DNA of 64,000 nucleotides from Pseudomonas azotoformans (lineage in GTDB: Bacteria > Pseudomonadota > Gammaproteobacteria > Pseudomonadales > Pseudomonadaceae), in the NCBI RefSeq assembly GCF_900103345.1, contig NZ_LT629702.1:2356001-2420000 (forward strand). The letters are read 5' to 3'. A program made the position numbers and the translations under genes. The notes under the pieces were generated by a model. The model was not told the origin of the DNA, did no database searches, and was given only the letters and a program-made list of their open reading frames with translations. Of this stretch, positions 22,875-57,276 are shown piece by piece. Every line of letters starts with the position of its first letter. The stretch's first letter is position 1.

Positions 22875-23283
22875 CTGTAGGAGCCGGCTTGCCGGTTCCT
22901 ACAAGACTGTGTATCTACGATGCGAAGCGAGTCGCTTTTGATCTTGCTTTTGACCTTAGGCGCCCCGTCAAACACGCTGGCCGGAATTCGACAGGGATTT
23001 GGGGGGTAAACCGGCAGGGATGCCGGTTTAGCCGCCCCGCGCCATGGATGGCGCGTGGCGGCGGCCCCCCAAATCCCTGTCGGATTACGGGCACACCGAG
23101 CCTAGGCGAGGTGCCGAGTGTTGGGGCAAGAGCGTTTTGCTTACTTTTGCGCTGTTCAAAAGTGAGCCGCCGTAAGGGCGGAACCATAAGTGGCCGTTAC
23201 CTAAATAACGGATATGTACCCGGTCAGATCCAACATCCAGGTCGGCTGTCAGGCCGCCCTCGCAGGCAAGCCAGCTCCCACAG
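22875..23283. repeat. Long Pseudomonas intergenic repeat with REP hairpins
   Basis: This non-coding stretch of about 470 bases between the amidase and LysR genes begins with a single REP hairpin (GTAGGAGCCGGCTTGCCGGT, about 22877-22903). It continues with a block rich in inverted sequence: GACAGGGATTTGGGG near 23000 is complemented by CCCCAAATCCCTGTC near 23075, and GGCAGGGATGCCGG forms an inner hairpin. It ends with half a REP (GCAGGCAAGCCAGCTCCCAC) at 23260-23279. Spurious frames through it read like fragments I associate with a dispersed repeat of Pseudomonas genomes. No credible gene is present. Confidence 0.6.
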
Positions 23284-41265: not shown

Positions 41266-42921
41266 ATGACTCGATTGAAACCATTGCCAGTGCTGTTGCT
41301 GGCCTTTGTTGCGTTTTACCTGTTGCCCCTGGGCCTGCATGGCCTGTGGATCCCCGACGAAACCCGCTACGCCCAGATCAGCCAGGAGATGCTCCAGAGC
41401 GGCAACTGGGTGTCCCCGCATTTCATGGGCATCCGCTACTTCGAAAAACCCGCCGGCGGCTACTGGTTGATTGCCCTGGGCCAGGCGGTGTTCGGCCAGA
41501 ACCTGTTCGGTGTGCGCATCGCCTCGGCGCTGACCACTGGCTTGAGCGTGCTGCTGGCCTACCTGATCGCCCGTCGCCTGTGGAACGACCCACGCAAGAG
41601 CTTCACCTGCGCCCTGCTCTACCTGAGCTTCGGCCTGGTAGCCGGGCAGGCGGGGTACTCCAACCTCGATCCGCAATTCACGTTCTGGGTCAACCTGAGC
41701 CTGGTGGCCCTGTGGTTTGCCCTCGATAGCGCCACGCTGCGAGGCCGCCTCTGGGCCTGGACCGTCGTGGGCCTGGCCTGCGCCATGGGTTTCATGACCA
41801 AGGGCTTTTTGGCCTTGGCACTGCCAGTACTGATTGCAGTGCCTTACATGCTCTGGCAACGCCGCCTGGGTGAGCTGCTGCGCTATGGCCCACTGGCGAT
41901 GGTGGTCGCAGCGTTGGTCTGCCTGCCTTGGGTGCTGGCGGTCCACCTTCAGGAACCGGACTTCTGGCGCTTCTTTTTCTGGAACGAACACATTCGCCGC
42001 TTCAGCGCCGACAACGCGCAGCATGTACGGCCGTGGTGGTTCTTCCTGCCGATCATCGCCGTGTCCAGCCTGCCGTGGGCCGGGCTGCTGCCGTCTGCCC
42101 TGCACAAGACCTGGCAGGAAAAACGCCAGCCGGCGATTACCTTCCTGGCGTTGTGGCTGCTGCTGCCCCTGGGCCTGTTCAGCTTGAGCAAAGGCAAGCT
42201 GCCGACTTACATCATGCCGTGCCTGCTGCCCCTGGCATTGCTGATGGGCCATACCCTGATCGACCTGGTCAAGCAGGGCAAAGCCCGCACGATCTGCCTC
42301 AATGGCCTGTTCAACTTCGTGATCGGCATGGCTGCCATGATCGGCCTGATCTATCTGCAAATCGCCCGGCCGCTGTACAGCAACAGCCACGCAGAAATGT
42401 TCAGCTTGTCCCTGGCTTTCATCGTGTTGCTGGCATGGATCCTCGCCAATCTGCTGCAAGTGATTCGCCCATTGACACTGTGGGCGATGCCTGCGCTGGG
42501 CATCGGCGTGCTGGTGATCCTGCTGCCGGCGAGCATGCCGTCGTGGATCGCGGACAACGAAATGCCCGACCAGTTTGTGCTTGAACACCTGGAAGAACTG
42601 CAACAGACCCAGGCACTGCTGAGCAATGAACTGGGGAGTGCCAGCGCCCTGGCCTGGCGCCTGAAACGACCAGAAGTATCGCTGTATGACACCGAGGGCG
42701 AACTGCGCTACGGCTTGCAATACGCGGGCTCGGTGCATCGCAAAGTGGAACTGGATGAGGTCCAGGCTTGGCTAAAGAATGCGCGCCAGCAGGGGTCGGT
42801 GGGCGTGTTGCTGCGGGTCAACAGCACCAGTGAAATGCGCGAAGCCGGGCAACTGCCGCCCGGCGGCAAACGTTATTACAAGGGTTATCTCGAACTGATC
42901 ATCTACCCGAAATTGCCCTGA
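41266..42921 (+). CDS. arnT: ArnT-family aminoarabinose (GT83) lipid A transferase
   Basis: This 551-residue inner-membrane glycosyltransferase moves 4-amino-4-deoxy-L-arabinose from undecaprenyl phosphate to lipid A, which lowers affinity for cationic peptides. It has about 12 hydrophobic helices. The periplasmic catalytic acidic motif [16 protein letters not shown] is at the N-terminus and [15 protein letters not shown] follows. Length and motifs fit ArnT. No arnBCADEF genes are present here, so the sugar donor would be made elsewhere. It overlaps the next transferase by ATGA. Confidence 0.85.
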
Positions 42922-44450: not shown

Positions 44451-45161
44451 TTACATTTTTTTGCTGACGGCATGGATAAATGCCTCATCCAGGCTTTGGG
44501 CGTCGTACGCGTCCATGAAGCCTTGCGCGTCAGTGAACCGGTTGAATCGCCTTTGGCTCAGCATATAAAAATCATCGCAATGCGCGACGATCTCATCGAC
44601 GTTATGTGATGAAACCAAGACCGCGACACCCTCTGCCGCTGCCCCCTCCAGACAGCGCCAAATGTGATAACGAAATTCCGGATCCACACCCGCGGTGGGC
44701 TCATCCAGTATCACCAGGTCTGCATTTGCACAGAGCAACGACAACGTAAAAAACCAGCGTTTCTCTCCATAGCTGCAGAGCGCAGATTTTTTGTTCCAGA
44801 TCTCGCAGTACCGCTCGGCGATGCCGGGGCTCCATTTTTCGATTTTATCGAGCGCATGTTGTTGGGTAACCCGGGTGTCGGAGCAAAACAGCATGGCCAT
44901 TTTGAAGATGTCGAACATGCGAAATACAGGGGGTGTGCTGATGACCTGCGACAGGTACAGCAGCTTGGAGAAGGAGCTGTTTATTTCACCACCCTCCACT
45001 TTCTTTAGGCCGCACAGCACATCAAAAAAAGTGGTTTTACCGGAGCCGTTTGGGCCGAGAAGGCCTGATATGCAACCGGCCTCAACTGTCAGCGAAGCCT
45101 GATGAAACACGGTATGAGTTCCATACCTGACACCGAGAGAGTCTACGAGAAGCCTCGCCAT
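44451..45161 (-). CDS. mcbF: McbF-like ABC transporter ATPase (LAP export/immunity)
   Basis: This 236-residue ATPase is the last gene of the microcin B17-like cluster. Walker A is GPNGSGKTT, the signature is weak (LCSYGEKRWFFTLSLL), and Walker B is LVILDEPTAGVD. I place the start at the ATG at 45161, overlapping the permease stop by one base. In the E. coli cluster McbEF exports the toxin and gives self-protection. The gene shares the A+T-rich composition of the island. Confidence 0.85.
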   Translation of the reverse strand: MARLLVDSLGVRYGTHTVFHQASLTVEAGCISGLLGPNGSGKTTFFDVLCGLKKVEGGEINSSFSKLLYLSQVISTPPVFRMFDIFKMAMLFCSDTRVTQQHALDKIEKWSPGIAERYCEIWNKKSALCSYGEKRWFFTLSLLCANADLVILDEPTAGVDPEFRYHIWRCLEGAAAEGVAVLVSSHNVDEIVAHCDDFYMLSQRRFNRFTDAQGFMDAYDAQSLDEAFIHAVSKKM

Positions 45162-45904
45162 CAATATCGACTCCAAACAGGATTAATCAACAAAAAACGA
45201 CATAGCACTAAAAACAACAACAGAAGGGAAAGGGTAACCACCCAGACAAGCAACGCGCACTCCACCACGCCGCCCAACATTATTTTATTCGCCCACCACA
45301 GGGGGTTGAAAAAATTGACAACCGTTAATAACGGACTGACTGAACCCATACTGACGATCCCAACAGCCAACATCAAAAGGGACAGAATAGAAAAGAGCGT
45401 ACTCGCATTTTGAAAACCTAACGGGACCAGCGTCAGCAATAACGCGGGAATAGAGAAAAGCAGAAAGCAAACATAAAATCGCCCTACAATCATGAGGTAC
45501 TCCGCACTATCAAGCCCCCCTGAATACATTCGCGTGAGCATATAAAATACGGAGCAATATACTATTGAAACAACTGAGTAAGCCAAAAACTGCCCAAACA
45601 AAAACACAACCTTCGTACGGCCCGTGTAAACAAAAGATCGAAGGAAGCCACTTTCCCTTCGCCCGACGATGTAAAAGGCCAGACCAAACAACGCCACATT
45701 GGAGGACACAAATGCGTAAAACCATGAAGTCCCCGAAAGATAATCCACAGCCTCACCACTCAGCGGCGCACGCGCATAGGTAATCAAGTAATAGGTCACC
45801 ACGGGAGACACGACTGTCCACAATAATGCAACCGGCTCTCTGAGTTGCTCTTTTATGAATAACGCCGCTAGCACAGCCGGCCTCGACACACAATAAAAGT
45901 CCAT
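45161..45904 (-). CDS. mcbE: McbE-like ABC-2 permease (LAP export/immunity)
   Basis: This 247-residue protein has about six hydrophobic helices in the ABC-2 arrangement and forms the membrane half of the exporter. The ATG at 45904 is preceded by GAGG eight bases upstream; a GTG at 45916 overlaps the YcaO stop. Synteny (A-B-C-D-E-F) supports the McbE role. Sequence similarity to E. coli McbE cannot be judged by eye. Confidence 0.8.
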   Translation of the reverse strand: MDFYCVSRPAVLAALFIKEQLREPVALLWTVVSPVVTYYLITYARAPLSGEAVDYLSGTSWFYAFVSSNVALFGLAFYIVGRRESGFLRSFVYTGRTKVVFLFGQFLAYSVVSIVYCSVFYMLTRMYSGGLDSAEYLMIVGRFYVCFLLFSIPALLLTLVPLGFQNASTLFSILSLLMLAVGIVSMGSVSPLLTVVNFFNPLWWANKIMLGGVVECALLVWVVTLSLLLLFLVLCRFLLINPVWSRY

Positions 45905-45912
45905 GATTGACC

Positions 45913-47106
45913 TCACGGAAACGGGACCATCACGCCTAGCCTAGTGCTGAGTATCGACGACTCAAACTCCTTGGAGTACTTATTTATCAAATTGAAATTC
46001 TGCGAATTATTCATATGAAGAAACAAATCAGGAGAGACAAACTTAACAAAGACGCCTGCCACTCCATTAATTTCTTCTAATCTGGAATAAAAATAGCCAG
46101 CGATATCTAACTGCTTCAGCACAAGCAAAAATTCAGGCAATGTAAAATCTTGTATAGATCCCACACCTCCACACTCGAGCACATTGACGGTTTCCAGATA
46201 GGTCTCATAAGCATTGCAACTTAAAAAGTAACGTATATATGAGTCCTCAAGCTTTTCCTCGTCAGAGTTAGTTGCCTTGAACACATTCATAAAACGAAAA
46301 GTTTGCCAGAGTTCTAGCAAGGACTTTTCTAAAGCGAGCGTCATATTCGAAGAATAGGCCATACCAGCACAATAATTCACATGACGATCATTTCTTTCCT
46401 GTCCATACACAACCAATATGCAACACCCTGGAAATCTGGAATCCGATATATCTAAAAAAGTAATATCCCCGGACATAGATAGAAGACCATATAAGTGCCT
46501 GACTTCCCGACTCGCCAACAATTTCCTCGCTTCTGTAGCCGGGATCAGTGAACGACACATTTTCGTTAACCAGAACCTGATAAGAAACTGACGTTCAAGG
46601 TATTCTTTTATGGCCCCTAGAAAGGCAGTATTTGGGCACCAGTGAAAACTGCACCCACAGGTATCCCGCAAAGGGTAGAACACGTTATCATCACCGACGC
46701 TATGGGACGAGAGCGAAATACAGACAGTAGGAATAAAACACGTAGAGAAGTCAGAGGCTCTGGCCACTTGACTTAAAGCAAATCTGTGCGCGCTAACCTC
46801 TGCTAGAGTGGTTTTCTTATTCGCAGTCTGAATGAATGCTTCCGCAAAACCCAGAGACTCGCTTCCTGATAGAGATTCACTAAGGCAACCGCGTTCTTTT
46901 GCCAAAACTTCCCTATAGAAATGCCGGCGCTCGAAATACTCACCTGTAGCAGTTTTTATCGAATTCGAGCCTCCTCCGACACCAGATCCATTAACAGAAA
47001 GGAAATCCGATATTTCTACGGAGCTTGGCAGACCGAGTATGCCCGCAGGCTGAAAAAGGATTATCCCGGGCAAATCCGGATTATGCATACCATTAATAAG
47101 CTTCAT
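45913..47106 (-). CDS. mcbD: YcaO cyclodehydratase (McbD-like)
   Basis: This 397-residue YcaO protein uses ATP to cyclise Cys and Ser side chains of the precursor to azolines. The ATP-site elements are visible: SGVGGGSNSIKTATGEYFER near residues 40-60 and AIKEYLERQFL in mid-protein. The C-terminus ends VPFP, a short version of the Pro-rich tail that is important in YcaO enzymes. Its start overlaps the dehydrogenase gene by 14 bases. In microcin B17 McbB, McbC and McbD form one synthetase complex. Confidence 0.9.
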   Translation of the reverse strand: MKLINGMHNPDLPGIILFQPAGILGLPSSVEISDFLSVNGSGVGGGSNSIKTATGEYFERRHFYREVLAKERGCLSESLSGSESLGFAEAFIQTANKKTTLAEVSAHRFALSQVARASDFSTCFIPTVCISLSSHSVGDDNVFYPLRDTCGCSFHWCPNTAFLGAIKEYLERQFLIRFWLTKMCRSLIPATEARKLLASREVRHLYGLLSMSGDITFLDISDSRFPGCCILVVYGQERNDRHVNYCAGMAYSSNMTLALEKSLLELWQTFRFMNVFKATNSDEEKLEDSYIRYFLSCNAYETYLETVNVLECGGVGSIQDFTLPEFLLVLKQLDIAGYFYSRLEEINGVAGVFVKFVSPDLFLHMNNSQNFNLINKYSKEFESSILSTRLGVMVPFP

Positions 47107-47899
47107 GCTGCTTACCTACAAAATGAACGCACATCGGAAAAAACAGAGCAGGGTTAATTCCCAAAACCTTGCACAGCATAAGGTCCGTATAAGCCGACCA
47201 TAGCCGACATGACAGCCCCAAGAGCTTTGCTTGCAGTTCGACAAGCATGTAAATTGAGCCAACCTCCATCAAGGCCATTCGATACGCACGATACCGATAC
47301 TTGAAGAGATTTTTGGGCATATAGACCGCGTAAACTATTGCCAGACTGGGCGTTCCAATTTTATTAGAAGAGAACAGCAATGCCGCTTTGAGTTCATCTA
47401 CGGCAATTTGAATTTGCATCACCTCAAATTTTCGGGACTTCGGAAGCAAATGGAGTACTTTTCCAGGACAGGGCCAAGTAGGATCATCCTCAATCATCGA
47501 ACAGAGAAAAACCTCAGCCGGATACAGTGCACCACCGCTCGGATATCCTCTTTTACAAGAGTCCAAATCCCGTGACAGTAATGGGAACATCAATTTCTCT
47601 ACATCTGAAAACTCTAACAAGAGAGATGCAAAATCCTCACACGACTCATTCCTGTATAATGCTCCCTCTCTATCGTCCTGGGATATATTGATCGCCAGCG
47701 ACAGGTCCATATCGGGATAAAGCGCCAATTCATTACCCGTTAGTTGCTCCAAACTTTTCTCATCCAACCGATGGAGAACTGTACGGCCTTTAGTAGCGCC
47801 ATGAAATGTAAAATTACCCTTATTATGAAATTCAAGCACCTCATCGTAAACTGACGACTCTATAAACCTAAGATAATAATCATGCGGTATATTTTTCAT
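47093..47899 (-). CDS. mcbC: McbC/SagB-type FMN dehydrogenase
   Basis: This 268-residue nitroreductase-fold protein oxidises azolines to thiazoles and oxazoles using FMN. Typical phrases are RGYPSGGALYPAEVFLCS and YRYRAYRMALMEVGSIYM, the latter carrying the Lys/Tyr-type motif region (KYRYRAY). Its start overlaps mcbB by ATGA and its end overlaps the YcaO gene, showing tight co-translation of the B-C-D synthetase genes. Confidence 0.88.
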   Translation of the reverse strand: MKNIPHDYYLRFIESSVYDEVLEFHNKGNFTFHGATKGRTVLHRLDEKSLEQLTGNELALYPDMDLSLAINISQDDREGALYRNESCEDFASLLLEFSDVEKLMFPLLSRDLDSCKRGYPSGGALYPAEVFLCSMIEDDPTWPCPGKVLHLLPKSRKFEVMQIQIAVDELKAALLFSSNKIGTPSLAIVYAVYMPKNLFKYRYRAYRMALMEVGSIYMLVELQAKLLGLSCRLWSAYTDLMLCKVLGINPALFFPMCVHFVGKQHEAY

Positions 47900-48753
47900 T
47901 TACCCGCCCTCAAACAATCACACATATACCAATGCGAGTTAGACTCTTCTGACATCTGACCATCTATCAGCTGAATATATGAACCATGCAAAACGTCATC
48001 CTGATATTTATGCATATCATTATACTCGGTGAAAAACTTAACTTTTTTGATAACCGCACCAACAACAATCATTTCCTGATAAAGACTGAGCGTCTTAGCG
48101 GGCACACCTATATGTTCATTCTTACAAAATGCCAAAACACTCGCCCAGTTATTCTTTGCAGCCGTCACTGACTGGTTATGAAGAAGCCTGTCGACGCTAC
48201 AAAAATGACACGGGTTCCCTATCTCTGCGATATGAGGCTGACCAACGCAAAAAATGCTACCCATTTGCAAACAAACACTAATGGCGCTTTTAGGGGACGC
48301 GCGCGCAAGATCAAAATATAAATTTTTAACGCGATCATAATCATACGTATAGCACAACAGCACAATAAAACACCTAAGATTCCGGACTGACTCGACCAGC
48401 TCACCTGAAAACGACTTAAACTCCAAACACGTGGAAAGCTCACATCTGAATAGGCGTTCAATATCAACCTGACCTGCCCACTCATGAACAACTATCGTTT
48501 TTTCAAAAAATATTTCCTCAGCTAGCCGCAGGGGAACTACTCTTTCTAAAAATTCAAAAGCACCACTTTGACTCAAACCATTTTCCGCCAAGACCTCTTC
48601 CAGCTCTACTTTCGTCATTAACTTCGACAGCTTTATTTGTCGAAGAGCTTTCAGTAACGACTGAGAATGAATTTTCGAAATCCCAACATCGGAGATCAGC
48701 AGACTCTCCGTTTCGAAGTTCAATATTTCATAATTTGGTATGATTATATTCAT
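47896..48753 (-). CDS. mcbB: McbB-like leader-binding zinc scaffold (E1-like)
   Basis: This 285-residue protein is the expected McbB partner that binds the precursor leader and presents the core to the YcaO enzyme. Four Cys in two clusters (PCHFC mid-protein and MCDC near the C-terminus) match the tetrathiolate zinc site of this family. The N-terminal half holds a winged-helix-like region (TKVELEEVLAENGLSQSGAF) fitting a peptide-recognition element. It is the first modification gene after the precursor, separated by a hairpin. Confidence 0.82.
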   Translation of the reverse strand: MNIIIPNYEILNFETESLLISDVGISKIHSQSLLKALRQIKLSKLMTKVELEEVLAENGLSQSGAFEFLERVVPLRLAEEIFFEKTIVVHEWAGQVDIERLFRCELSTCLEFKSFSGELVESVRNLRCFIVLLCYTYDYDRVKNLYFDLARASPKSAISVCLQMGSIFCVGQPHIAEIGNPCHFCSVDRLLHNQSVTAAKNNWASVLAFCKNEHIGVPAKTLSLYQEMIVVGAVIKKVKFFTEYNDMHKYQDDVLHGSYIQLIDGQMSEESNSHWYMCDCLRAGK

Positions 48754-48769
48754 TGTACGATCCCCTGTA

Positions 48770-48797
48770 GAGGTTTTCTGACAAACCAGAAAACCTC
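48770..48797 (-). other. Perfect 11-bp hairpin between precursor and mcbB
   Basis: GAGGTTTTCTG and CAGAAAACCTC form a perfect 11-bp stem with a 6-base loop in the gap of about 66 bases between mcbA and mcbB. No run of T follows on the minus strand, and a G-rich ribosome site for mcbB comes soon after. It is therefore better read as a processing or partial-termination structure that keeps precursor RNA in excess over enzyme RNA. Confidence 0.7.
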
Positions 48798-48819
48798 ATT
48801 AGGTGAGTGAATACTGAAT

Positions 48820-49020
48820 TTACTCATCCGTTGATGCAGGCTCCATTATCGAGTTATGGCAGCCCCCGCTTCCCCCATTACACCCGCCGCCCCCACCACA
48901 CCCTCCGCTACCACCGCACCCACCTTGACTTCCTGACGCTCCGGCATTACCTGCGTACGGGTTGAACCCTTCTTCACTTTCGAAACTAAAAACAACTTCT
49001 CCAAACTCTTCGCTGTTCAT
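48820..49020 (-). CDS. mcbA: Microcin B17-like LAP precursor peptide
   Basis: This 66-residue peptide is encoded first in the cluster, with GGAGG about eight bases upstream. The leader (residues 1 to about 28) begins MNSEEFGEVVFSFE and shares the EFGxVV pattern of E. coli McbA (SEFGVVLSV), whose Phe contacts McbB. The core (about 29-57) is Gly-rich with Cys at 35, 41, 47 and 54, each after Gly-Gly, and Ser at 29, 31, 38, 51 and 57. There is no Ser-Cys or Cys-Ser pair. A 12-residue non-Gly tail (HNSIMEPASTDE) follows the last Cys. Up to four thiazoles and a few oxazoles are predicted. Confidence 0.9.
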   Translation of the reverse strand: MNSEEFGEVVFSFESEEGFNPYAGNAGASGSQGGCGGSGGCGGGGGCNGGSGGCHNSIMEPASTDE

Positions 49021-49399: not shown

Positions 49400-49890
49400 G
49401 CTAATACCGGCTTCGCTCATCTGTGTAATGACTACATCGCCGAGGATGTGTGAACAGACGGCCAAACTCGCGTAGTGCTTTCAGCACACCCGCAGGTGGT
49501 GTGTATGGTGCAGAGTACCTCCTTGGTTTTTTCTGCCTCGCGAATGAATGCGATGCGCCCTTCGGGCTCTTCGCAGTGGGCATCGCTCGCTGCGCCATAA
49601 GCCCGCAATCAAGTATCCGGATTGATCCGGCTTTTGCGCTGCGCACTCGCCAAGTTCCGGCTGTTAAGGTCGCTGTTCCGTCTGCCCGCTTGCAGGACGA
49701 TGGCGCGGTTGGTCACCCGTTGCAGGTCGGATAAGCGCTGAGAAATGCAAAGGATGACTACGCAGCGGGCGTGTTGGCAGTGTGTGTGGTGAGCGTATAG
49801 GTAGCCTTGGACTGCGTGGCGCAAGCGGCAATAGCCAGAAAACGAGTCGAACAAATAGTCATGCGCCGCAGGGAAGAACAATCATCTTAA
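49400..49890. repeat. GC-richer non-coding patch, probable dispersed repeat or remnant
   Basis: About 490 bases much richer in G+C than the flanks. Several short open frames run on both strands (for example 49401-49646 and 49609-49881 minus) but none has a ribosome site or a family I can name. Frames of this kind are often annotated as hypothetical proteins in Pseudomonas, suggesting a dispersed element. It sits between the LAP precursor promoter and an unknown gene, inside the A+T-rich island. Confidence 0.4.
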
Positions 49891-50045
49891 TCACCTGCAA
49901 GATAGTTAGGCTCATCAAAACCAACAGCTCCATATAACCTCCCGACACATGGATACTCGCTTTTTATACCTGTCAACATTCACAGTTTACACACGCCTGA
50001 AACTTGAAATAATTGGAGCACACCCACGCAAAGGAAGCTCTCATC

Positions 50046-50534
50046 ATGTCTCAGGCACACTTGAAAGACCTCATTCATCACAACGATCCCGGCAAAAGCA
50101 CAGCAACTGGAACATTCAACGTAACACTGCATGATGCTCAATTCCCACTACCACGACAAAAACGATTGGACTTCGAGAAACATCTCGGCGACGATCCTTC
50201 CGAAGCCAGATGGATTGGCAGGAGAGTAGGTGAGCAGGCTGACGCCAACTATCAAGCCGTTGTATTGGCCATTTCAGATTCGGTCCCCGATGGCACTCAT
50301 CAAGTTACATACTTTGGAGCCGTAGCGGTGATTTACGCTCTTGTTATAAACGATGTCATCGTCAGTTATTATGCAACGGAAGGAGAACTCACCCTCACCT
50401 CTAATCGCACACCTGGACAGGAGCATATTTCTGGCACTTTCTCCAATTGCCGAATGGTTCAGGATGGGGCGCCGCATAATGAGTTCCGGATGTCGGGCAA
50501 TTATGACCTGGAGGGAGTTCACAACATTCCTTGA
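50046..50534 (+). CDS. Hypothetical protein, unrecognised
   Basis: This 162-residue soluble protein starts at the ATG at 50046, with GGAAG nine bases upstream; an ATG-less extension to 50013 is less likely. No signal peptide or membrane segment is visible. The C-terminal half is beta-rich with a regular pattern (TYFGAVAVIYALVINDVIVS; GTFSNCRMVQDG). It has no pentapeptide repeats, so it is not McbG. Composition is intermediate between the island and the NRPS. Its job is unknown; linkage to the LAP cluster is by proximity only, on the opposite strand. Confidence 0.7.
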   Translation: MSQAHLKDLIHHNDPGKSTATGTFNVTLHDAQFPLPRQKRLDFEKHLGDDPSEARWIGRRVGEQADANYQAVVLAISDSVPDGTHQVTYFGAVAVIYALVINDVIVSYYATEGELTLTSNRTPGQEHISGTFSNCRMVQDGAPHNEFRMSGNYDLEGVHNIP

Positions 50535-50577: not shown

Positions 50578-53500
50578 TCAAATCCGCCGCCGCCGCCCCA
50601 ACTGCGGAATAGCCGCCTGAGGCACCTCCACCCGCTGAACCTGCGTCAACACACACCCCGCCAGTTGCGCCACCGTCGGATGACTGAACAACGCCCGCGC
50701 ATCCACCTCCACCCCCGCCTTGCGCATCCGCGCCACCAGGTTCACCGCCAACAACGAATGCCCGCCCAGCTCAAAGAAATGATCATGCCGCCCCACCCGC
50801 TCCAACTTCAGCAACTCAGCCCAGATCCCGGCCATCAACACCTCCACCGCCCCGACCGGCGCCGCATAGGCCCGGCTAACCACCGCCCCCAACCCCGGCT
50901 CCGGCAACGCCTTGCGGTCAAGTTTGCCCGCCGGATTGAGCGGCAACGCGTCAAGCTGCACAAACGCCGCCGGCACCATGAACTCCGGCAACTGTTCCAG
51001 CACATGGGCGCGCAACGCATCCAGGCTCGGCGCCTCGCCACGCACGGTGAAATACGCCACCAGGCGTTCATCGCGAATCAACACCGCCACTTCACGCAAC
51101 GCCGGATGCACCAGCAGCCGTGACTCGATCTCCCCCAGTTCCAGGCGCACACCGCGCAGTTTGACCTGGAAGTCGTTACGCCCGAGGAACTCCAGATTGC
51201 CGTCAGGCAGGTAGCGCACCAGGTCGCCAGTGCGATACAGCCGATCACCGGCCACGAACGGGCTGTCGATAAAGCGCTCGGCGGTCATCTGCTGCAGCCC
51301 CAGGTAACCCCGGGCCACACCGACCCCACCGATATGCAATTGACCGCTCACGCCCATCGGCACCGGCGCATCGTGTTCATCCAGCACATACAGGCGCGTG
51401 TTGTTGATCGCCCGCCCAATCGGCAACTGCAATGCCGGCACCGGCGCGCCGGGTTCCAGGGTCCAGGCGCTGCTGTCCACCGTGGCTTCAGTGGGACCGT
51501 AGACGTTATGCAGGCGCACCTTGGGCAAGCGCGCCTGCACGCCATGGGCCAGGGCTTCGGTGAGCTCGCCACCGCCGCACAGCACATCAGTGAGGCTGGT
51601 ACACAACGCCGATTCTTCCAGCTCAAGGAACTGCTGCAACATCGCCGGCACGAACTTGATCACCGTGATCTGCTGCTCACGAATCACCTGCGCCAGGTAG
51701 GCCGGTTCGCGATGGCCGTCGGGCCGTGCCAGCACCAGGCGCATGCCGTTGGTGAGCGGCCAGAACAGCTCCCACACCGAACCGTCGAAGCTGAACGGCG
51801 CCCGCTGCAACAGCGCGCCGCCTTCGGCATTGGGGCACAGCTGCGAGCCCCAGTGCATCAGGTTGCCGAGGCCACGGTGTTCGATCATCACGCCCTTGGG
51901 TGTGCCGGTGGAGCCCGAGGTGTACATCACGTAGGCCAGGTTGGCCACGCTCAGCCCCGGCACCAACGGGTTGCCGACAGGTGCCTGGCTCCAGGCGCAG
52001 TGGTCGAAGTCGATCACCGGGATCGACACGTCACCCGGCACGTCACGGGTGGCGGCATGTACCAGCAGCGCCACCGGCTGGCTGTCGTGGAGCATGTAGG
52101 CCAGGCGCTCGCGCGGGTAGCCCGGATCCAGCGGCACATAGGCACCGCCGGCCTTGAGGATGGCCAGCAGGCCCACCACCAGTTCCAAGCCGCGCTCGAC
52201 GCACAGCGCGACGCGGGCGTCCGGTTGCACACCGCGCTCACGCAGGTGGAAGGCCAATTGGTTGGCGCGTTCGTTGAGTTCGCGGTAGGTCAGTTGCAAC
52301 TCGCCGGCCTGCACCGCGATGGCATGGGGGATATGCCGTGCGTGGGCTTCGAACAGCGCCTGCACCGTGAAAGTGTCGGGGTAGTCGGTGTCGGTAGCGT
52401 TGAAGTCCACCAGCAGGGTTTTCAGCTCGTCGGCGGGCAGTACCTGGACGTCGCGCAAAGGTGTCTGTGGCGCCTGGTCCAGCATGTCCGCCAGGTTGAC
52501 CAGGGTGGTTTCGAGGTAGTCCAGCAGGCGCTCGGCGCCGACCTTGTGTGGCGCCTTGGCCTTGATGCGCAAGCCTGCAGCCGTGTCGTCCACGGTCAGC
52601 ATCAGCGGGTAGCTGAGGATGTCCTCGCTGCTGAGCAAGGCAATGCCCGGCACCAGGGTCAGGTCACGCTCGGCGTCGGTGTGCCGGTAGTTGAGCAGGC
52701 TGTTGAACAACGGTGACGCGCCGCTGCAACGCTGGGCCAGCGCAAGGGAGGCTTGTTCATGGGCAAGCAAGGCGCTGAGTCGGACGTGGGTGTGCGTGAG
52801 CGCATCGGCCACGGTTCGCCCGGCCAGGCGCACCCGCAGCGGCAGGGTGTTGATGAACATGCCCAGGGCGCGGTCGGCGCCCTCGCCCGCCTGCAAACGG
52901 CCGAGCAGCACGGTGCCGAAGACCACGTCATCACGGCCGGCGACACGGCTGAGCACCTGGGCCCAGGCCAGGTGGAACAGGCTGGCGGTGCTCACGCCCA
53001 CGCCACGCGCCTGGGCACGCAAACGCTGATTGAGGCTGTCACTCAAGCCACGTTCGGCTTGTTCGGTGTGCGCCCGATCCGCCTGGCGCTCCTGTAGACC
53101 GAAGGCCAGGGTCGGCTCGTCGACATCCCCCAACTGCTCGCGAAAGAACGCCTCGTGCGCCGCTTGACGTGCCGGCGAACGGGCTTGCACCACCACATTG
53201 CGATACGGCACCGGCACCGGCAACTGCGCCTGCTGGCCGAGCAAGTGGGCGCGGATTTCCTGCATCAGGAGCGTGGTCGAGGTGGCGTCATTGACCAGGT
53301 GATGGAAACGCAGCCGCGCCACCCAACGCGAGTGCTGCGGCTCTTCGGCATAGTCCAGGGCCATCAGCGGCGCCTGGCGCAAATCCAGCGGCGCAGGGTC
53401 TTCGCGCAGCGGCTCAACGCGTAATTGCGCCTGACGCCACACCACCTGCATCGGTTGCTCCAGGGCCTCCCACACCAGGCTGGTACGCAGGATGTCATGG

Positions 53501-56500
53501 CGGTTGATCACCTGTTGCAGGGCCTGGGCAAACGCGTCCAACTGCTCGCGCTGCGCAAAGCTGAACAGCGCCTGCTGCTGATACGGATCGCGCTCATCAG
53601 TGATGTGGTGGTAGAGCAAGCCTTCCTGCAACGGCGCCAGCGGGTAGATGTCCTGCACATTGGCCGCGCCGCCGGGGATGCGCGCGACGATAGGCGCCAG
53701 GCTGTCGGGGTCGAGTTCGGCCAGGTCCGGCGCGTCCACGTCGCTGAGTTCACTCGCCGCCGCCAGGGCCGCCAGAGTCGGCTGGCCGAACAGCACCTGC
53801 ACATCGGCGCGCAAGCCGACCTGGCGCATGCGTTGCACCAATTGCACGGCCAGCAACGAATGCCCGCCCAGTTCGAAGAAGTGGTCGTGGCGCCCGACCT
53901 GCTGCACCTGCAACAGCTCGGCCCAGATCTGTGCGAGTACGCTTTCCGCGCCGGCGTGCGGTGCTTCGTACAGGCGGGTGACGAATGCGTCTTGGGTCGG
54001 TGCGGGCAACGCCTTGCGATCCAGCTTGCCGTTGGCGGTCAGGGGCAACACGTCCAACTGCACGTAGGCGGCCGGCAGCATGTAGTCGGGCAGCGACGCT
54101 TGCAGGTGGGCGCGCAGGGCTTCGATCGGCACCGCTTCACGCGGGACGAACCAGGCCAGCAACTGCCCTTCGCGGGCCTGTACCACGGCGTCCTGAATAT
54201 GCGGGTGCGTGGCCAGGGCCGATTCGATTTCACCCAGTTCAATGCGCACGCCGCGGATTTTCACCTGGTCGTCATTGCGCCCCAGGTATTCAAGGTTGCC
54301 GTCCGGCAGCCAGCGCACCAGGTCGCCGGTGCGGTACATGCGCCCCTGGGTAAAGGGGTCGTCGAGGAAACGCTCGGCACTGAGGTCGGGACGCTTGAGA
54401 TACCCGCGCGCGATGCCCTTGCCGCCCACGTACAACTCCCCTGCCACGCCGATGGGCAGCGGCCGTTGCTGCGCGTCCAGCACGTACACCGTGGCATTGG
54501 CGACAGGCGCGCCGATATGCAATGGCCGGCCGACAGCCATGGGGCCAGAGGTGGCGACCACCGTGGCTTCGGTAGGGCCGTAGTTGTTGATCACGGCGAA
54601 GGACTGCGCCTGGGTGAACGCGCGCAGACGGTCGCCGCCGATCAGCAGGGTGCGCAGTGTCGGGTGGTGCAGGCCCTGGCTGAAGGCGTACTCCGCCACG
54701 GGCGTCGGCAGGAAGCACACGTCCAGCGGCTGCGCCTGCCACCAACCGAGCAGCGCGTCGATGTCTTCGGCGCCGTCATGGGCCGGCGGCAGGTGCAGCG
54801 TGGCGCCCACGCACAACGCCGGCCAGACCTCCCAGGCCATCGCGTCAAAACCGAAACCGGCGACGCTGGCGGTATGGCTGCCGGCATGCAGGTCGAAGGC
54901 CCGGCAGTGCCAGTCCACCAGGTTCGAGACGCTGTGGTGCTCGACCATCACGCCCTTGGGCAAACCGGTGGAGCCGGAGGTGTAGATCACGTAGGCAAGG
55001 TGCGAGGGGCTGATCGCTACGCGGGGGTTGGTGCCCAGGTGGAAGGTCGGGCGGTCGAGTTGGATCACCGGCACCGTCAACGGGGGCAACCGATGCAGCA
55101 AATCGTGCTGGGTCAGCACCACTACCGGGTCGCTGTCCTGCAGCAGGTAATTCAGGCGCTCGGCGGGATGGGCCGGGTCTACCGGCACGTAGCAGGCGCC
55201 GGATTTGAGGATCGCCAGCAACCCCACCAGCGTGTCCAGCCCGCGCCGCGCCAGGATCACCACGCGGTCGTCCGGCCGCACGCCGCGCTCCAGCAGTTGA
55301 TGGGCCAGCGCGTTGGCCTGCTGGTTGAGTTGGGCGTAGCTCAGGTGCCGCCCCTGATACACCGCCGCGATGGCGTCCGGCGCACGCGCAGCCTGGGCTT
55401 CAATGCGCGCGTGCAGGGTTTGTGGCTGGGTAACGGGCTCGGCAGTGGCGTTCCATTGCTGCAACCGGGCCTGCTCGGCAGGTGTCACCAGCGAAAAATC
55501 GCGGATCGTCAGCGCGGTGTCTTCCAGCCCCTGTTCCAGCAACCAGGTCAAGCGTTGCGCCAGGGCCGCCACTTCATCGTGCTGGAAGTACGCTTCGTTG
55601 TAGACGCAATGCAGGCACGCAGTGTCCTGGTAGCGATTGCTGCGCAGGTGCAGGGCCAGCGGCAGCGGCTCATGGTGGTTGGACACCTTGACCGCACGGC
55701 CTGCGGTCGTGCCGTAGCGCAGTTCATGATCGTCCTGCTCGAAGGACACCGACAGGTCGAACAGCTGGCCGCGATCGCTGCGACGCAGGCGCAACTCGCG
55801 GTTCATCTCGCTCAGGGGGAAACGCTGATGGCGGAAATCCTGCTTGAGCTGGTCGCGCACCCCACGCACCACCGCGCTGAACGGCGACTGCTCATCAAAC
55901 TGCAAGCGCACGGCGCTGACCTGGGTGAACAGCCCGACGGTGGAGCGGAACCGCGCATTGGAACGGTTGAGAATCGGCAACCCCACTACCCACTCCTGGC
56001 GTTGAGCGGTACGGGTGAAATACACATACAGCGCCGCCAACAGCACATGAAACGCCGACGCCTGGTAACGGTTGGCCACCTGCTCCATGCGGTTGAGCAG
56101 TGCCACCGGAAACGCCTGCGCCAGGGTATTGCTCGTGGCCTTGGCCGTGTGCCGCGGGGTCAGCAGCGGCTCGGGAATCAGCCGGTACTTGTCCAGCCAA
56201 TAGGCGCGGTCGCGGGCATAACGGGCGGACGCGTGGTAGTGCTGGTCTGCGTCGATAAAGTCGATGTAAGACGGCGCCGGCGACTCCGCTTGCCGGCCTT
56301 GCGCCAGGGCGGTGTACAGCTGCGCGAGGGATTGCAGCATCTGGCCGAAGCCCCAGCCGTCGAGGATCAGGTGGTGGGCCTGGGTGCCGAGGCGATAGTG
56401 GTTGTCGTCGAGCTTGACCAGGAAAAAGCGGAACAGCGGCGCGCCCTGCATCGCATAAGGCCGGGCCATTTGCGCCTGCATCAGGGCGTGGCTCGCGGCC

Positions 56501-56787
56501 TGCGGGTCGCAACCCTTAGAAACGTCATGCAGCGCCAGGTCCACAGCCAACGTGGCAGCAAAGGTTTGGCGAGGCAGGCCGTCGGCGTCGCTGTGCAGTT
56601 GCGTGCGCAACGCGTCGTGCCTGGCGACCAGACGTTCAACAGCGCGCTGCATCAGGCCGGGGTCAATGGCGCCGGCAAAATCCACATAACCACCAATGTT
56701 GTACAGCGGCGAATCGCCTGCACGCAGTTGGTCGAGCCAGATGTCCTGCTGGGCGGCGGTGAGGGGGAAGCTGGGTGAATGCTTCAT
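50578..56787 (-). CDS. Dimodular NRPS, lipopeptide starter type (Leu, then probably Glu)
   Basis: This 2069-residue synthetase starts at the ATG at 56787 (AAGGA upstream). Domain order: C1 (HHLILDG at 138-144), A1 (about 455-940), T1 (LGGHS, Ser977), C2 (about 1045-1450, motif HHLVNDA at 1162-1168), A2 (about 1480-1975), T2 (LGGHS, Ser about 2011). There is no thioesterase or epimerase. The A1 specificity code reads DAWFLGNVVK, the known Leu code. A2 reads DGWKLGVVDK, not certain but compatible with Glu by analogy. Size, modules and the LuxR/NodT neighbours match ViscA/MassA-type starters with a lipo-initiating first C domain; the remaining modules would be elsewhere. Confidence 0.9.
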   Translation of the reverse strand: MKHSPSFPLTAAQQDIWLDQLRAGDSPLYNIGGYVDFAGAIDPGLMQRAVERLVARHDALRTQLHSDADGLPRQTFAATLAVDLALHDVSKGCDPQAASHALMQAQMARPYAMQGAPLFRFFLVKLDDNHYRLGTQAHHLILDGWGFGQMLQSLAQLYTALAQGRQAESPAPSYIDFIDADQHYHASARYARDRAYWLDKYRLIPEPLLTPRHTAKATSNTLAQAFPVALLNRMEQVANRYQASAFHVLLAALYVYFTRTAQRQEWVVGLPILNRSNARFRSTVGLFTQVSAVRLQFDEQSPFSAVVRGVRDQLKQDFRHQRFPLSEMNRELRLRRSDRGQLFDLSVSFEQDDHELRYGTTAGRAVKVSNHHEPLPLALHLRSNRYQDTACLHCVYNEAYFQHDEVAALAQRLTWLLEQGLEDTALTIRDFSLVTPAEQARLQQWNATAEPVTQPQTLHARIEAQAARAPDAIAAVYQGRHLSYAQLNQQANALAHQLLERGVRPDDRVVILARRGLDTLVGLLAILKSGACYVPVDPAHPAERLNYLLQDSDPVVVLTQHDLLHRLPPLTVPVIQLDRPTFHLGTNPRVAISPSHLAYVIYTSGSTGLPKGVMVEHHSVSNLVDWHCRAFDLHAGSHTASVAGFGFDAMAWEVWPALCVGATLHLPPAHDGAEDIDALLGWWQAQPLDVCFLPTPVAEYAFSQGLHHPTLRTLLIGGDRLRAFTQAQSFAVINNYGPTEATVVATSGPMAVGRPLHIGAPVANATVYVLDAQQRPLPIGVAGELYVGGKGIARGYLKRPDLSAERFLDDPFTQGRMYRTGDLVRWLPDGNLEYLGRNDDQVKIRGVRIELGEIESALATHPHIQDAVVQAREGQLLAWFVPREAVPIEALRAHLQASLPDYMLPAAYVQLDVLPLTANGKLDRKALPAPTQDAFVTRLYEAPHAGAESVLAQIWAELLQVQQVGRHDHFFELGGHSLLAVQLVQRMRQVGLRADVQVLFGQPTLAALAAASELSDVDAPDLAELDPDSLAPIVARIPGGAANVQDIYPLAPLQEGLLYHHITDERDPYQQQALFSFAQREQLDAFAQALQQVINRHDILRTSLVWEALEQPMQVVWRQAQLRVEPLREDPAPLDLRQAPLMALDYAEEPQHSRWVARLRFHHLVNDATSTTLLMQEIRAHLLGQQAQLPVPVPYRNVVVQARSPARQAAHEAFFREQLGDVDEPTLAFGLQERQADRAHTEQAERGLSDSLNQRLRAQARGVGVSTASLFHLAWAQVLSRVAGRDDVVFGTVLLGRLQAGEGADRALGMFINTLPLRVRLAGRTVADALTHTHVRLSALLAHEQASLALAQRCSGASPLFNSLLNYRHTDAERDLTLVPGIALLSSEDILSYPLMLTVDDTAAGLRIKAKAPHKVGAERLLDYLETTLVNLADMLDQAPQTPLRDVQVLPADELKTLLVDFNATDTDYPDTFTVQALFEAHARHIPHAIAVQAGELQLTYRELNERANQLAFHLRERGVQPDARVALCVERGLELVVGLLAILKAGGAYVPLDPGYPRERLAYMLHDSQPVALLVHAATRDVPGDVSIPVIDFDHCAWSQAPVGNPLVPGLSVANLAYVMYTSGSTGTPKGVMIEHRGLGNLMHWGSQLCPNAEGGALLQRAPFSFDGSVWELFWPLTNGMRLVLARPDGHREPAYLAQVIREQQITVIKFVPAMLQQFLELEESALCTSLTDVLCGGGELTEALAHGVQARLPKVRLHNVYGPTEATVDSSAWTLEPGAPVPALQLPIGRAINNTRLYVLDEHDAPVPMGVSGQLHIGGVGVARGYLGLQQMTAERFIDSPFVAGDRLYRTGDLVRYLPDGNLEFLGRNDFQVKLRGVRLELGEIESRLLVHPALREVAVLIRDERLVAYFTVRGEAPSLDALRAHVLEQLPEFMVPAAFVQLDALPLNPAGKLDRKALPEPGLGAVVSRAYAAPVGAVEVLMAGIWAELLKLERVGRHDHFFELGGHSLLAVNLVARMRKAGVEVDARALFSHPTVAQLAGCVLTQVQRVEVPQAAIPQLGRRRRI

Positions 56788-57276
56788 AAGATCCTTCTCA
56801 TGGAGGTCAGGCACTGGCCGCGCAGGGGTGCCCATTACGACGAATGGGCCGGATTGGAGCATGGGGGCCAGGGGCTGTCTGTCACCCTAAACCCGGACAT
56901 CCGAAGGGATAGACCAGGCTTGGCTGATGGTTCATTGCTGAAACGATTAAAGAGTTGTAGGACATTGGCTATATTTGGCCGATGCCGGTTTGAATTGAAC
57001 ATTTCAAAAAATATATTTTTATCTTATTTATCATATGGTTAATTAACTCTAAAAAATCCGCTTGGTGACTCGTAGTCGGAATTACCTCTCAGAAACGTCG
57101 AATTAATGACGCGGTTTCTATGGCAGGTTGTGTCCCTCGTTTCCGCTACATACGTAGGACAAATCCACTGGCTAAATACACTTTCGAATACCGACTCTGG
57201 TGTGTGAGCAACGGATCGCCCCCGCAGAGGCCCAGAGCGTCTGTACACGGTTTTCGATATCAAGGATGAGAAGGCT
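56788..57276. promoter_or_regulatory. Divergent intergenic region between NRPS and luxR-type gene
   Basis: About 490 bases with no gene. The centre (about 57000-57060) is very A+T-rich. GTAGGACA occurs twice (about 56955 and 57154). TGTCC at 57131-57135 and GGACA at 57157-57161 form a weak inverted repeat that includes the second copy. These are candidates for LuxR-type binding sites, but nothing is close enough to a known box to assign. Confidence 0.35.

Follow-up and report, generated by a model that had tools for sequence, protein, structure and literature searches.

The closest described systems are the microcin B17 operon of Escherichia coli plasmids (mcbABCDEFG) and the microcin B-like clusters of Pseudomonas. 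In E. coli, the leader of the precursor McbA is 26 residues long and is taken off by the proteases TldD and TldE (PMC5810440), and a review assigns both secretion and self-immunity to mcbE and mcbF (PMC9517006). For gyrase poisoning by the product, bis-azoles are described as essential and the C-terminal end as important (PMC7680869; PMC3622597), with a fragment lacking the first bis-azole retaining full cleavage activity (PMC3622597). Thirty clusters were counted in E. coli and three Pseudomonas species (PMC4603692), a microcin B17-like region was noted in the P. fluorescens-group strain A506 (PMC3390384), and clusters of the P. fluorescens group are described as having mcbA to mcbF without mcbG, unlike those of P. 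syringae, which carry it (PMC8719888). The P. syringae peptides (Metelev 2013, cited in PMC8719888 and PMC7680869) are reported to be gyrase inhibitors (PMC7680869); like the present locus, theirs are Pseudomonas microcin B operons. Here, we analyzed a 64,000-nucleotide stretch of the Pseudomonas azotoformans genome (contig NZ_LT629702.1, positions 2,356,001 to 2,420,000; the window), which carries a chromosomal microcin B-type operon. We consider it probable that the making genes of this operon, mcbA to mcbD, have been lost repeatedly in the genus while McbEF, a probable exporter and immunity pump, has been kept by non-producers.

Between positions 44451 and 49020 of the window, the minus strand holds six open frames in the order mcbA-B-C-D-E-F, as follows.

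48820..49020, minus strand: mcbA, 66-amino-acid (aa) precursor frame with an acidic leader containing EEFGEVVFSF, a Gly-rich core, and an acidic tail
48823..48948, minus strand: McbA core and tail, approximate (residues 25 to 66), with the leader/core boundary placed by analogy with E. coli McbA
47896..48753, minus strand: mcbB, zinc-binding leader-recognition partner of the cyclodehydratase (TIGR04424 and 6GOS McbB)
47093..47899, minus strand: mcbC, flavin mononucleotide (FMN)-dependent azoline dehydrogenase (6GOS McbC)
45913..47106, minus strand: mcbD, YcaO ATP-dependent cyclodehydratase (6GOS McbD and PF02624)
45161..45916, minus strand: mcbE, membrane part of the ATP-binding cassette (ABC) exporter/immunity pump (phmmer to the E. 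coli McbE frame)
44451..45176, minus strand: mcbF, ATPase of the McbE pump (ABC_tran and phmmer to the E. coli McbF frame)

The listed frames overlap at B/C, C/D, D/E, and E/F; the likelier ATG starts are at 45904 for mcbE and 45161 for mcbF, which would put D and E a few bases apart and join E and F by ATGA. An earlier note on this DNA, made from its letters alone, had read six minus-strand genes that overlap or nearly touch, and all of these frames are open. Its statement that they follow the exact E. coli order holds for mcbA to mcbF, but in the E. coli, Klebsiella, and Rahnella clusters examined, mcbF is followed by mcbG, which encodes a pentapeptide-repeat protein, and no such gene follows it in the window. 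No tRNA or Rfam match was found inside the cluster.

The same note had assigned the operon to the linear azole-containing peptides (LAPs), also called thiazole/oxazole-modified microcins (TOMMs), and the features of that class are present: a YcaO cyclodehydratase, an McbB-type zinc partner with a leader-binding domain, an FMN azoline dehydrogenase, and an adjoining Cys/Ser-rich precursor. Sequence matches identify the three enzymes and the two pump proteins, and architecture identifies the precursor, for which profile searches returned no matching family model. The three enzymes were matched nearly full length to 6GOS, the solved E. coli microcin B17 synthetase. McbB reaches 228.5 bits against the NCBIfam model TIGR04424 (cut-off, 65) and aligns with the 6GOS McbB chain over residues 5 to 282 (E = 3.3e-10), retaining CxxC and CxC motifs that we take to be zinc ligands. 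McbC matches its 6GOS chain at E = 1.6e-38 and the SagB-domain model TIGR03605 at 8e-17, below the cut-off of that model. McbD aligns with its 6GOS chain over residues 18 to 397 (E = 3.8e-57), ends in MVPFP as E. coli McbD does, and matches the YcaO family PF02624 above the cut-off (4.5e-13). Because of the TIGR04424, PF02624, and near-full-length 6GOS matches, the mcb assignment is not due to chance. For the pump, phmmer against the frames of L105, the mcb locus of E. coli plasmid pMRE600-1, gave E = 2e-26 for McbE and 3e-40 for McbF; McbF also matches ABC_tran (1.3e-14), and McbE matches PF12698 below its cut-off (0.021). Homology to McbB through McbF is thus borne out, with McbB, McbC, and the YcaO protein McbD placed on 6GOS chains and McbE and McbF placed by phmmer. 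In L105 itself, no coding sequence is listed over mcbC, in a gene table that is by design incomplete, and the mcbC profile match falls in two pieces, so that mcbC is possibly broken there or carries a sequencing error.

Other features of the microcin B17 system are found as well, namely, homologues of the McbEF pump, predicted to serve export, and host genes for TldD and PmbA/TldE, which score 763 and 558 bits against their equivalog models; the same genome encodes one SbmA/BacA-family protein. The locus therefore resembles the E. coli plasmid operon in the order of mcbA to mcbF, the McbB, McbC, and McbD proteins, McbEF, the TldD/TldE genes, and a Gly-rich Cys/Ser core. It differs in lying on the chromosome beside arnT, in an McbD that shares about 32% identity with the listed plasmid versions, and in its missing mcbG, its core, and its tail.

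To place the operon in its genus, we searched 398 Pseudomonas genomes (genomes and loci are designated by G and L numbers). The pump gene mcbE was found in 56 genomes, whereas mcbD, with fragments counted, was found in 28, all of which have mcbE. Scored with profiles on stop-to-stop frames, 22 of the 56 mcbE loci have mcbB to mcbF, each at least 85% complete in one frame (21 strictly, as G324 has an in-frame stop in mcbD). Some of B, C, and D are broken or missing in 4 loci (G111, G057, G072, and G020), and in the remaining 30, the E-F-only loci, none of the three is intact. Of these, 28 have both mcbE and mcbF intact. Debris of the making genes lies in seven of them: pieces of D in G403 and G159, of A in G342, of B and C in G195, of B in G317 and G022, and debris also in G137; by eye, G022 has an A-like frame too, and that of G137 has an mcbD-like end. 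The DNA alignment of G342 leaps from the 3′ end of mcbD to just past the mcbA stop, which indicates one internal deletion. Among 12 named loci, all from Pseudomonas, 11 had matches to B through F; the exception is L012 (P. fluorescens PS691), where an mcbA-like frame (by eye) and the end of mcbD are followed by E and F. A search with the McbB family found 29 of the 398 genomes at E = 0.001, 26 of them above the cut-off. Two of these matches, G338 and G021, lie outside the mcbE list; the contig of G338 ends in mcbC, which makes it uninformative on the pump. Among the McbB-family loci of the 398 genomes, no working-looking making genes were seen without the pump. In four decayed loci, the mcbB remnants are N-terminal pieces.

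L163 5523-5807 and the G195, G317, and G022 loci: McbB N-terminal pieces of about 60 to 82 residues

This part of McbB is presumably the leader-binding domain, and we considered whether the pieces in G195, G317, G022, and G021 are a retained form of it; chance deletion ends explain them equally well, and the idea was set aside.

The cluster lies beside arnT, a conserved gene that served as an anchor.

41266..42921, plus strand: arnT, conserved anchor gene beside the cluster (NF009784, 759 bits, above the cut-off)
50578..56862, minus strand: two-module nonribosomal peptide synthetase (NRPS), 2,094 aa, on the other flank of the mcb island

An arnT orthologue (identity at least 77%; next, 70%) is present in 55 of the 398 genomes, and mcbE lies within about 8 kb of it in 16 of them, the present genome included; 6 of these loci have the full set (G324 among them) and 10 have E and F only. 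We inspected the flank in 30 of the 55 genomes, of which 16 have mcb genes and 14 have nothing at the site. In a quick arnT tree of these 30 genomes, full, E-F-only, and empty sites are interleaved, and the E-F label changes 10 times, with at least 7 changes forced by starred branches. Five of the 12 named loci (P. simiae, P. cedrina, P. veronii, P. cyclaminis, and P. marginalis) have in common with the window the DNA downstream, on the arn side. The earlier note had described an A+T-rich island and suggested horizontal transfer. The composition is as it said, with a G+C content of 0.448 for mcbB to mcbF and 0.629 for the window more than 1 kb away, and loci with mcbD or an mcbD fragment range from 0.39 to 0.50, which still suits an old foreign origin. 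A recent insertion into this genome was rejected, as the arnT-side site is occupied in relatives of other species; because 16 of the 55 genomes with an arnT orthologue have the whole cluster or just E-F there, the island is old and not a recent arrival. Plasmid carriage was also considered and rejected: PLSDB gave no DNA-level match, and its protein-level matches were all below 60% identity, with none in Pseudomonas.

We built an E+F protein tree of 58 rows by a quick method, with G239 left out and three long rows included. E-F-only and full loci are interleaved in it, the E-F-only loci are not basal, and their label changes 20 times, with at least 13 changes forced by starred branches; this number is no lower than with shuffled labels, and horizontal swaps of E-F could add to it. 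The ratio of nonsynonymous to synonymous substitution rates (dN/dS) of E and F was 0.06 to 0.33 in 10 pairs of E-F-only loci (17 of 20 values were computable) and 0.06 to 0.15 in two pairs of full loci, which only suggests constraint on E-F after the loss of the other genes.

The McbA core has Cys at residues 35, 41, 47, and 54 and Ser at 29, 31, 38, and 51, making four of each in the repeat part. The identity of mcbA is 83 to 92% in L001, L002, G141, G185, and G217 and about 72% in more distant relatives; the core is kept, while leaders and tails differ widely. A Gly/Cys/Ser core is common to 25 Pseudomonas loci, although these precursors were gathered with a search pattern derived from that motif, and its conservation thus partly reflects how they were chosen. 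The earlier note had thought that the precursor and its context may be new. The core is common to other Pseudomonas species and thus not peculiar to this strain, and the arnT site is occupied in other species too. The residue after the Cys of GGGGGC is Ser in 11 of the 25 cores, giving a Cys-Ser bis-azole site, and Asn or Lys in the other 14, where this site is absent; two of these 14, G161 and G318, carry a Ser-Cys pair in their tails. For comparison, McbA of the E. coli locus L105 contains SC, CS, and CS pairs. The window core has no adjacent Cys-Ser or Ser-Cys and thus offers no site for the fused bis-azoles of microcin B17, and the other five full arnT-site loci are likewise without a bis-azole site in the Gly-rich core; the acidic tail of the window precursor takes the place of the SHI end. 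For a core starting at residue 25, 27, or 29, the calculated [M+H]+ of the unmodified peptide is 3558.31, 3373.23, or 3245.17, and each azole would lower it by 20.026; judged by the number of Cys and Ser residues, some eight azoles would be the maximum.

The absence of mcbG extends beyond the window. In the 28 genomes that have mcbD, whole or fragmentary, none of the listed PF00805 matches lay on the mcbD contig at a distance of 50 kb or less; the contigs of G002, G171, and G362 end about 500 bases or less from mcbF. The whole genome has nine PF00805 matches in three frames. One of these frames lies some 68 kb away from mcbD and begins with what looks like a signal peptide, and we suspect that it is PedD, a pentapeptide protein of the ped cluster (PMC12997753). 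A further candidate is far from the cluster.

G000 contig 3352147-3352662 (L082 576-1313), minus strand: pentapeptide-repeat protein, 245 aa, resembling Qnr/MfpA and other pentapeptide proteins

Both the ~68-kb frame and the 245-aa protein were considered as an unlinked McbG, and neither was established as immunity.

The sequences show the operon content, the synthetase homology, the TldD/TldE genes, and the pattern of loss and retention; azole formation, export, and immunity by McbEF alone are inferences. McbB, McbC, and McbD would bind the McbA leader and convert the core Cys and some Ser residues into thiazoles and oxazoles, the host TldD/TldE would remove the leader, and McbE/McbF would export the mature peptide and, given that there is no linked mcbG, would probably provide the main self-immunity as well. 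The making genes would tend to decay repeatedly with E-F left intact, so that non-producers would probably be immune to the peptide of their neighbors. A protective pump in the absence of mcbG would account for E-F often outlasting A to D and for our seeing no case in which E-F went first. Poisoning of gyrase by the product, as with microcin B17, is the part of which we are least sure: the core lacks a bis-azole site and the tail is acidic, yet the microcin B17 fragment without the first bis-azole is fully active, so that perhaps only the second pair counts. More tentatively, and with somewhat less than even confidence, we propose that the operon repeatedly collapses by internal A-D deletions to an McbEF immunity module, leaving about half of the loci in immune non-producers, that McbEF suffices without McbG, and that the target in the window lineage differs or is bound differently.

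Several observations weigh against repeated loss with a retained, sufficient pump. No A-D trace was detected in 23 of the 30 E-F-only loci, for which the direction of loss is taken by analogy; it is fixed by debris for seven loci, and not by the tree or dN/dS numbers. Changes on a tree cannot separate loss from gain, the more so on a quick tree with three long rows, and the dN/dS argument is weakened by possible separate A-D losses and by several dS values above 2 (saturated). E is broken in G239 and F in G263, so E-F is not always kept, and all that G021 retains in the 14 kb examined is 60 residues of mcbB, E-F being absent, so complete decay occurs too. The Qnr-like protein, though far from the cluster, could serve as unlinked immunity, and the core without Cys-Ser or Ser-Cys pairs, followed by a tail that does not end in Ser-His-Ile, departs from microcin B17.

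The loci without detected debris, together with the label as scattered as a shuffled one on the E+F tree, would also fit a free-standing transporter for another substrate that was recruited into mcb operons. We regard this as unlikely, since remnants of A, B, C, or D precede E in seven loci, the same arnT site holds E-F-only loci in 10 genomes and full loci in 6, and the E-F-only loci are interleaved with full ones on the E+F tree and not basal. A peptide made by the microcin B route but aimed at a target other than DNA gyrase is a possibility to which we give rather more room while still doubting it: the Gly-rich core offers no place for bis-azoles in the window, in the other five full loci beside arnT, and, with these six counted, in 14 of 25 Pseudomonas cores; among the listed matches, no gyrase-protecting mcbG is linked in the 28 mcbD genomes; and related LAPs are known to hit the 70S ribosome (PMC7680869), but the P. 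syringae peptides reported as gyrase inhibitors speak for gyrase, and a gyrase target is compatible with immunity by the pump only. It seems improbable to us that this strain has merely a relic of the operon, silent or in decay. Decay is common in the genus, with four loci having B, C, or D broken or missing beside intact ones and with the stop in G324, and a promoter scan of the region returned fewer sites than shuffled sequence, an uninformative result; here, however, all six frames are open, the CxxC, CxC, and MVPFP motifs are retained, and relatives preserve the McbA core even as its leader and tail diverge.

Repeated loss of the making genes with retention of McbEF has a smaller precedent in E. 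coli, where two microcin-resistant strains carry mcbG and an mcbF orthologue, flanked by transposases, without making genes (PMC10926693). There, as here, immunity genes are retained without production, and in those strains they are linked to resistance; here, the retained genes are mcbE and mcbF, with 28 intact pairs lacking intact B, C, and D in 398 genomes and ten E-F-only loci at the arnT site. A search of open-licence literature, a weak negative, found no report of E-F-only loci in Pseudomonas. The class itself, as the earlier note had allowed, is not new: the window cluster looks like one more of the mcbG-less A-F clusters already reported in its own genus group (PMC8719888), and no description of precursor cores, the arnT site, E-F-only loci, or a product was found in the text consulted on those clusters (PMC8719888; PMC3390384).

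We also observed other elements around the island. The best NCBIfam match of the NRPS at 50578 to 56862 is SolG, below its cut-off, and NRPS DNA lies near arnT in several genomes without mcb as well. A short minus-strand frame at 49609 to 49881 resembles the end of a sugar ABC-transporter ATPase and, by eye, also longer frames that precede mcbE in G087 and G322; it may be what is left of an older gene there. A plus-strand frame of 173 aa at 50013 to 50534, by the A+T-rich stretch, has a weak DUF6252 match (E = 0.021), and a TwoAYGGAY RNA motif lies on the plus strand at 22973 to 23099, above its gathering score.

At the level of the strain, then, the cluster is ordinary for the P. fluorescens group; two points merit testing, namely, that McbEF is kept across the genus where the making genes are gone and that the core lacks a site for bis-azoles. 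The cluster adds a predicted peptide to a small family with a valued target, and it raises the question of whether an ABC pump alone confers immunity without a gyrase-protecting protein. At one chromosomal site, lineages that would be producers, immune non-producers, and presumably sensitive strains occur together, the mix supposed in models of bacteriocin competition, and the genus pattern turns this into an ecological question that can be tested with natural strains.

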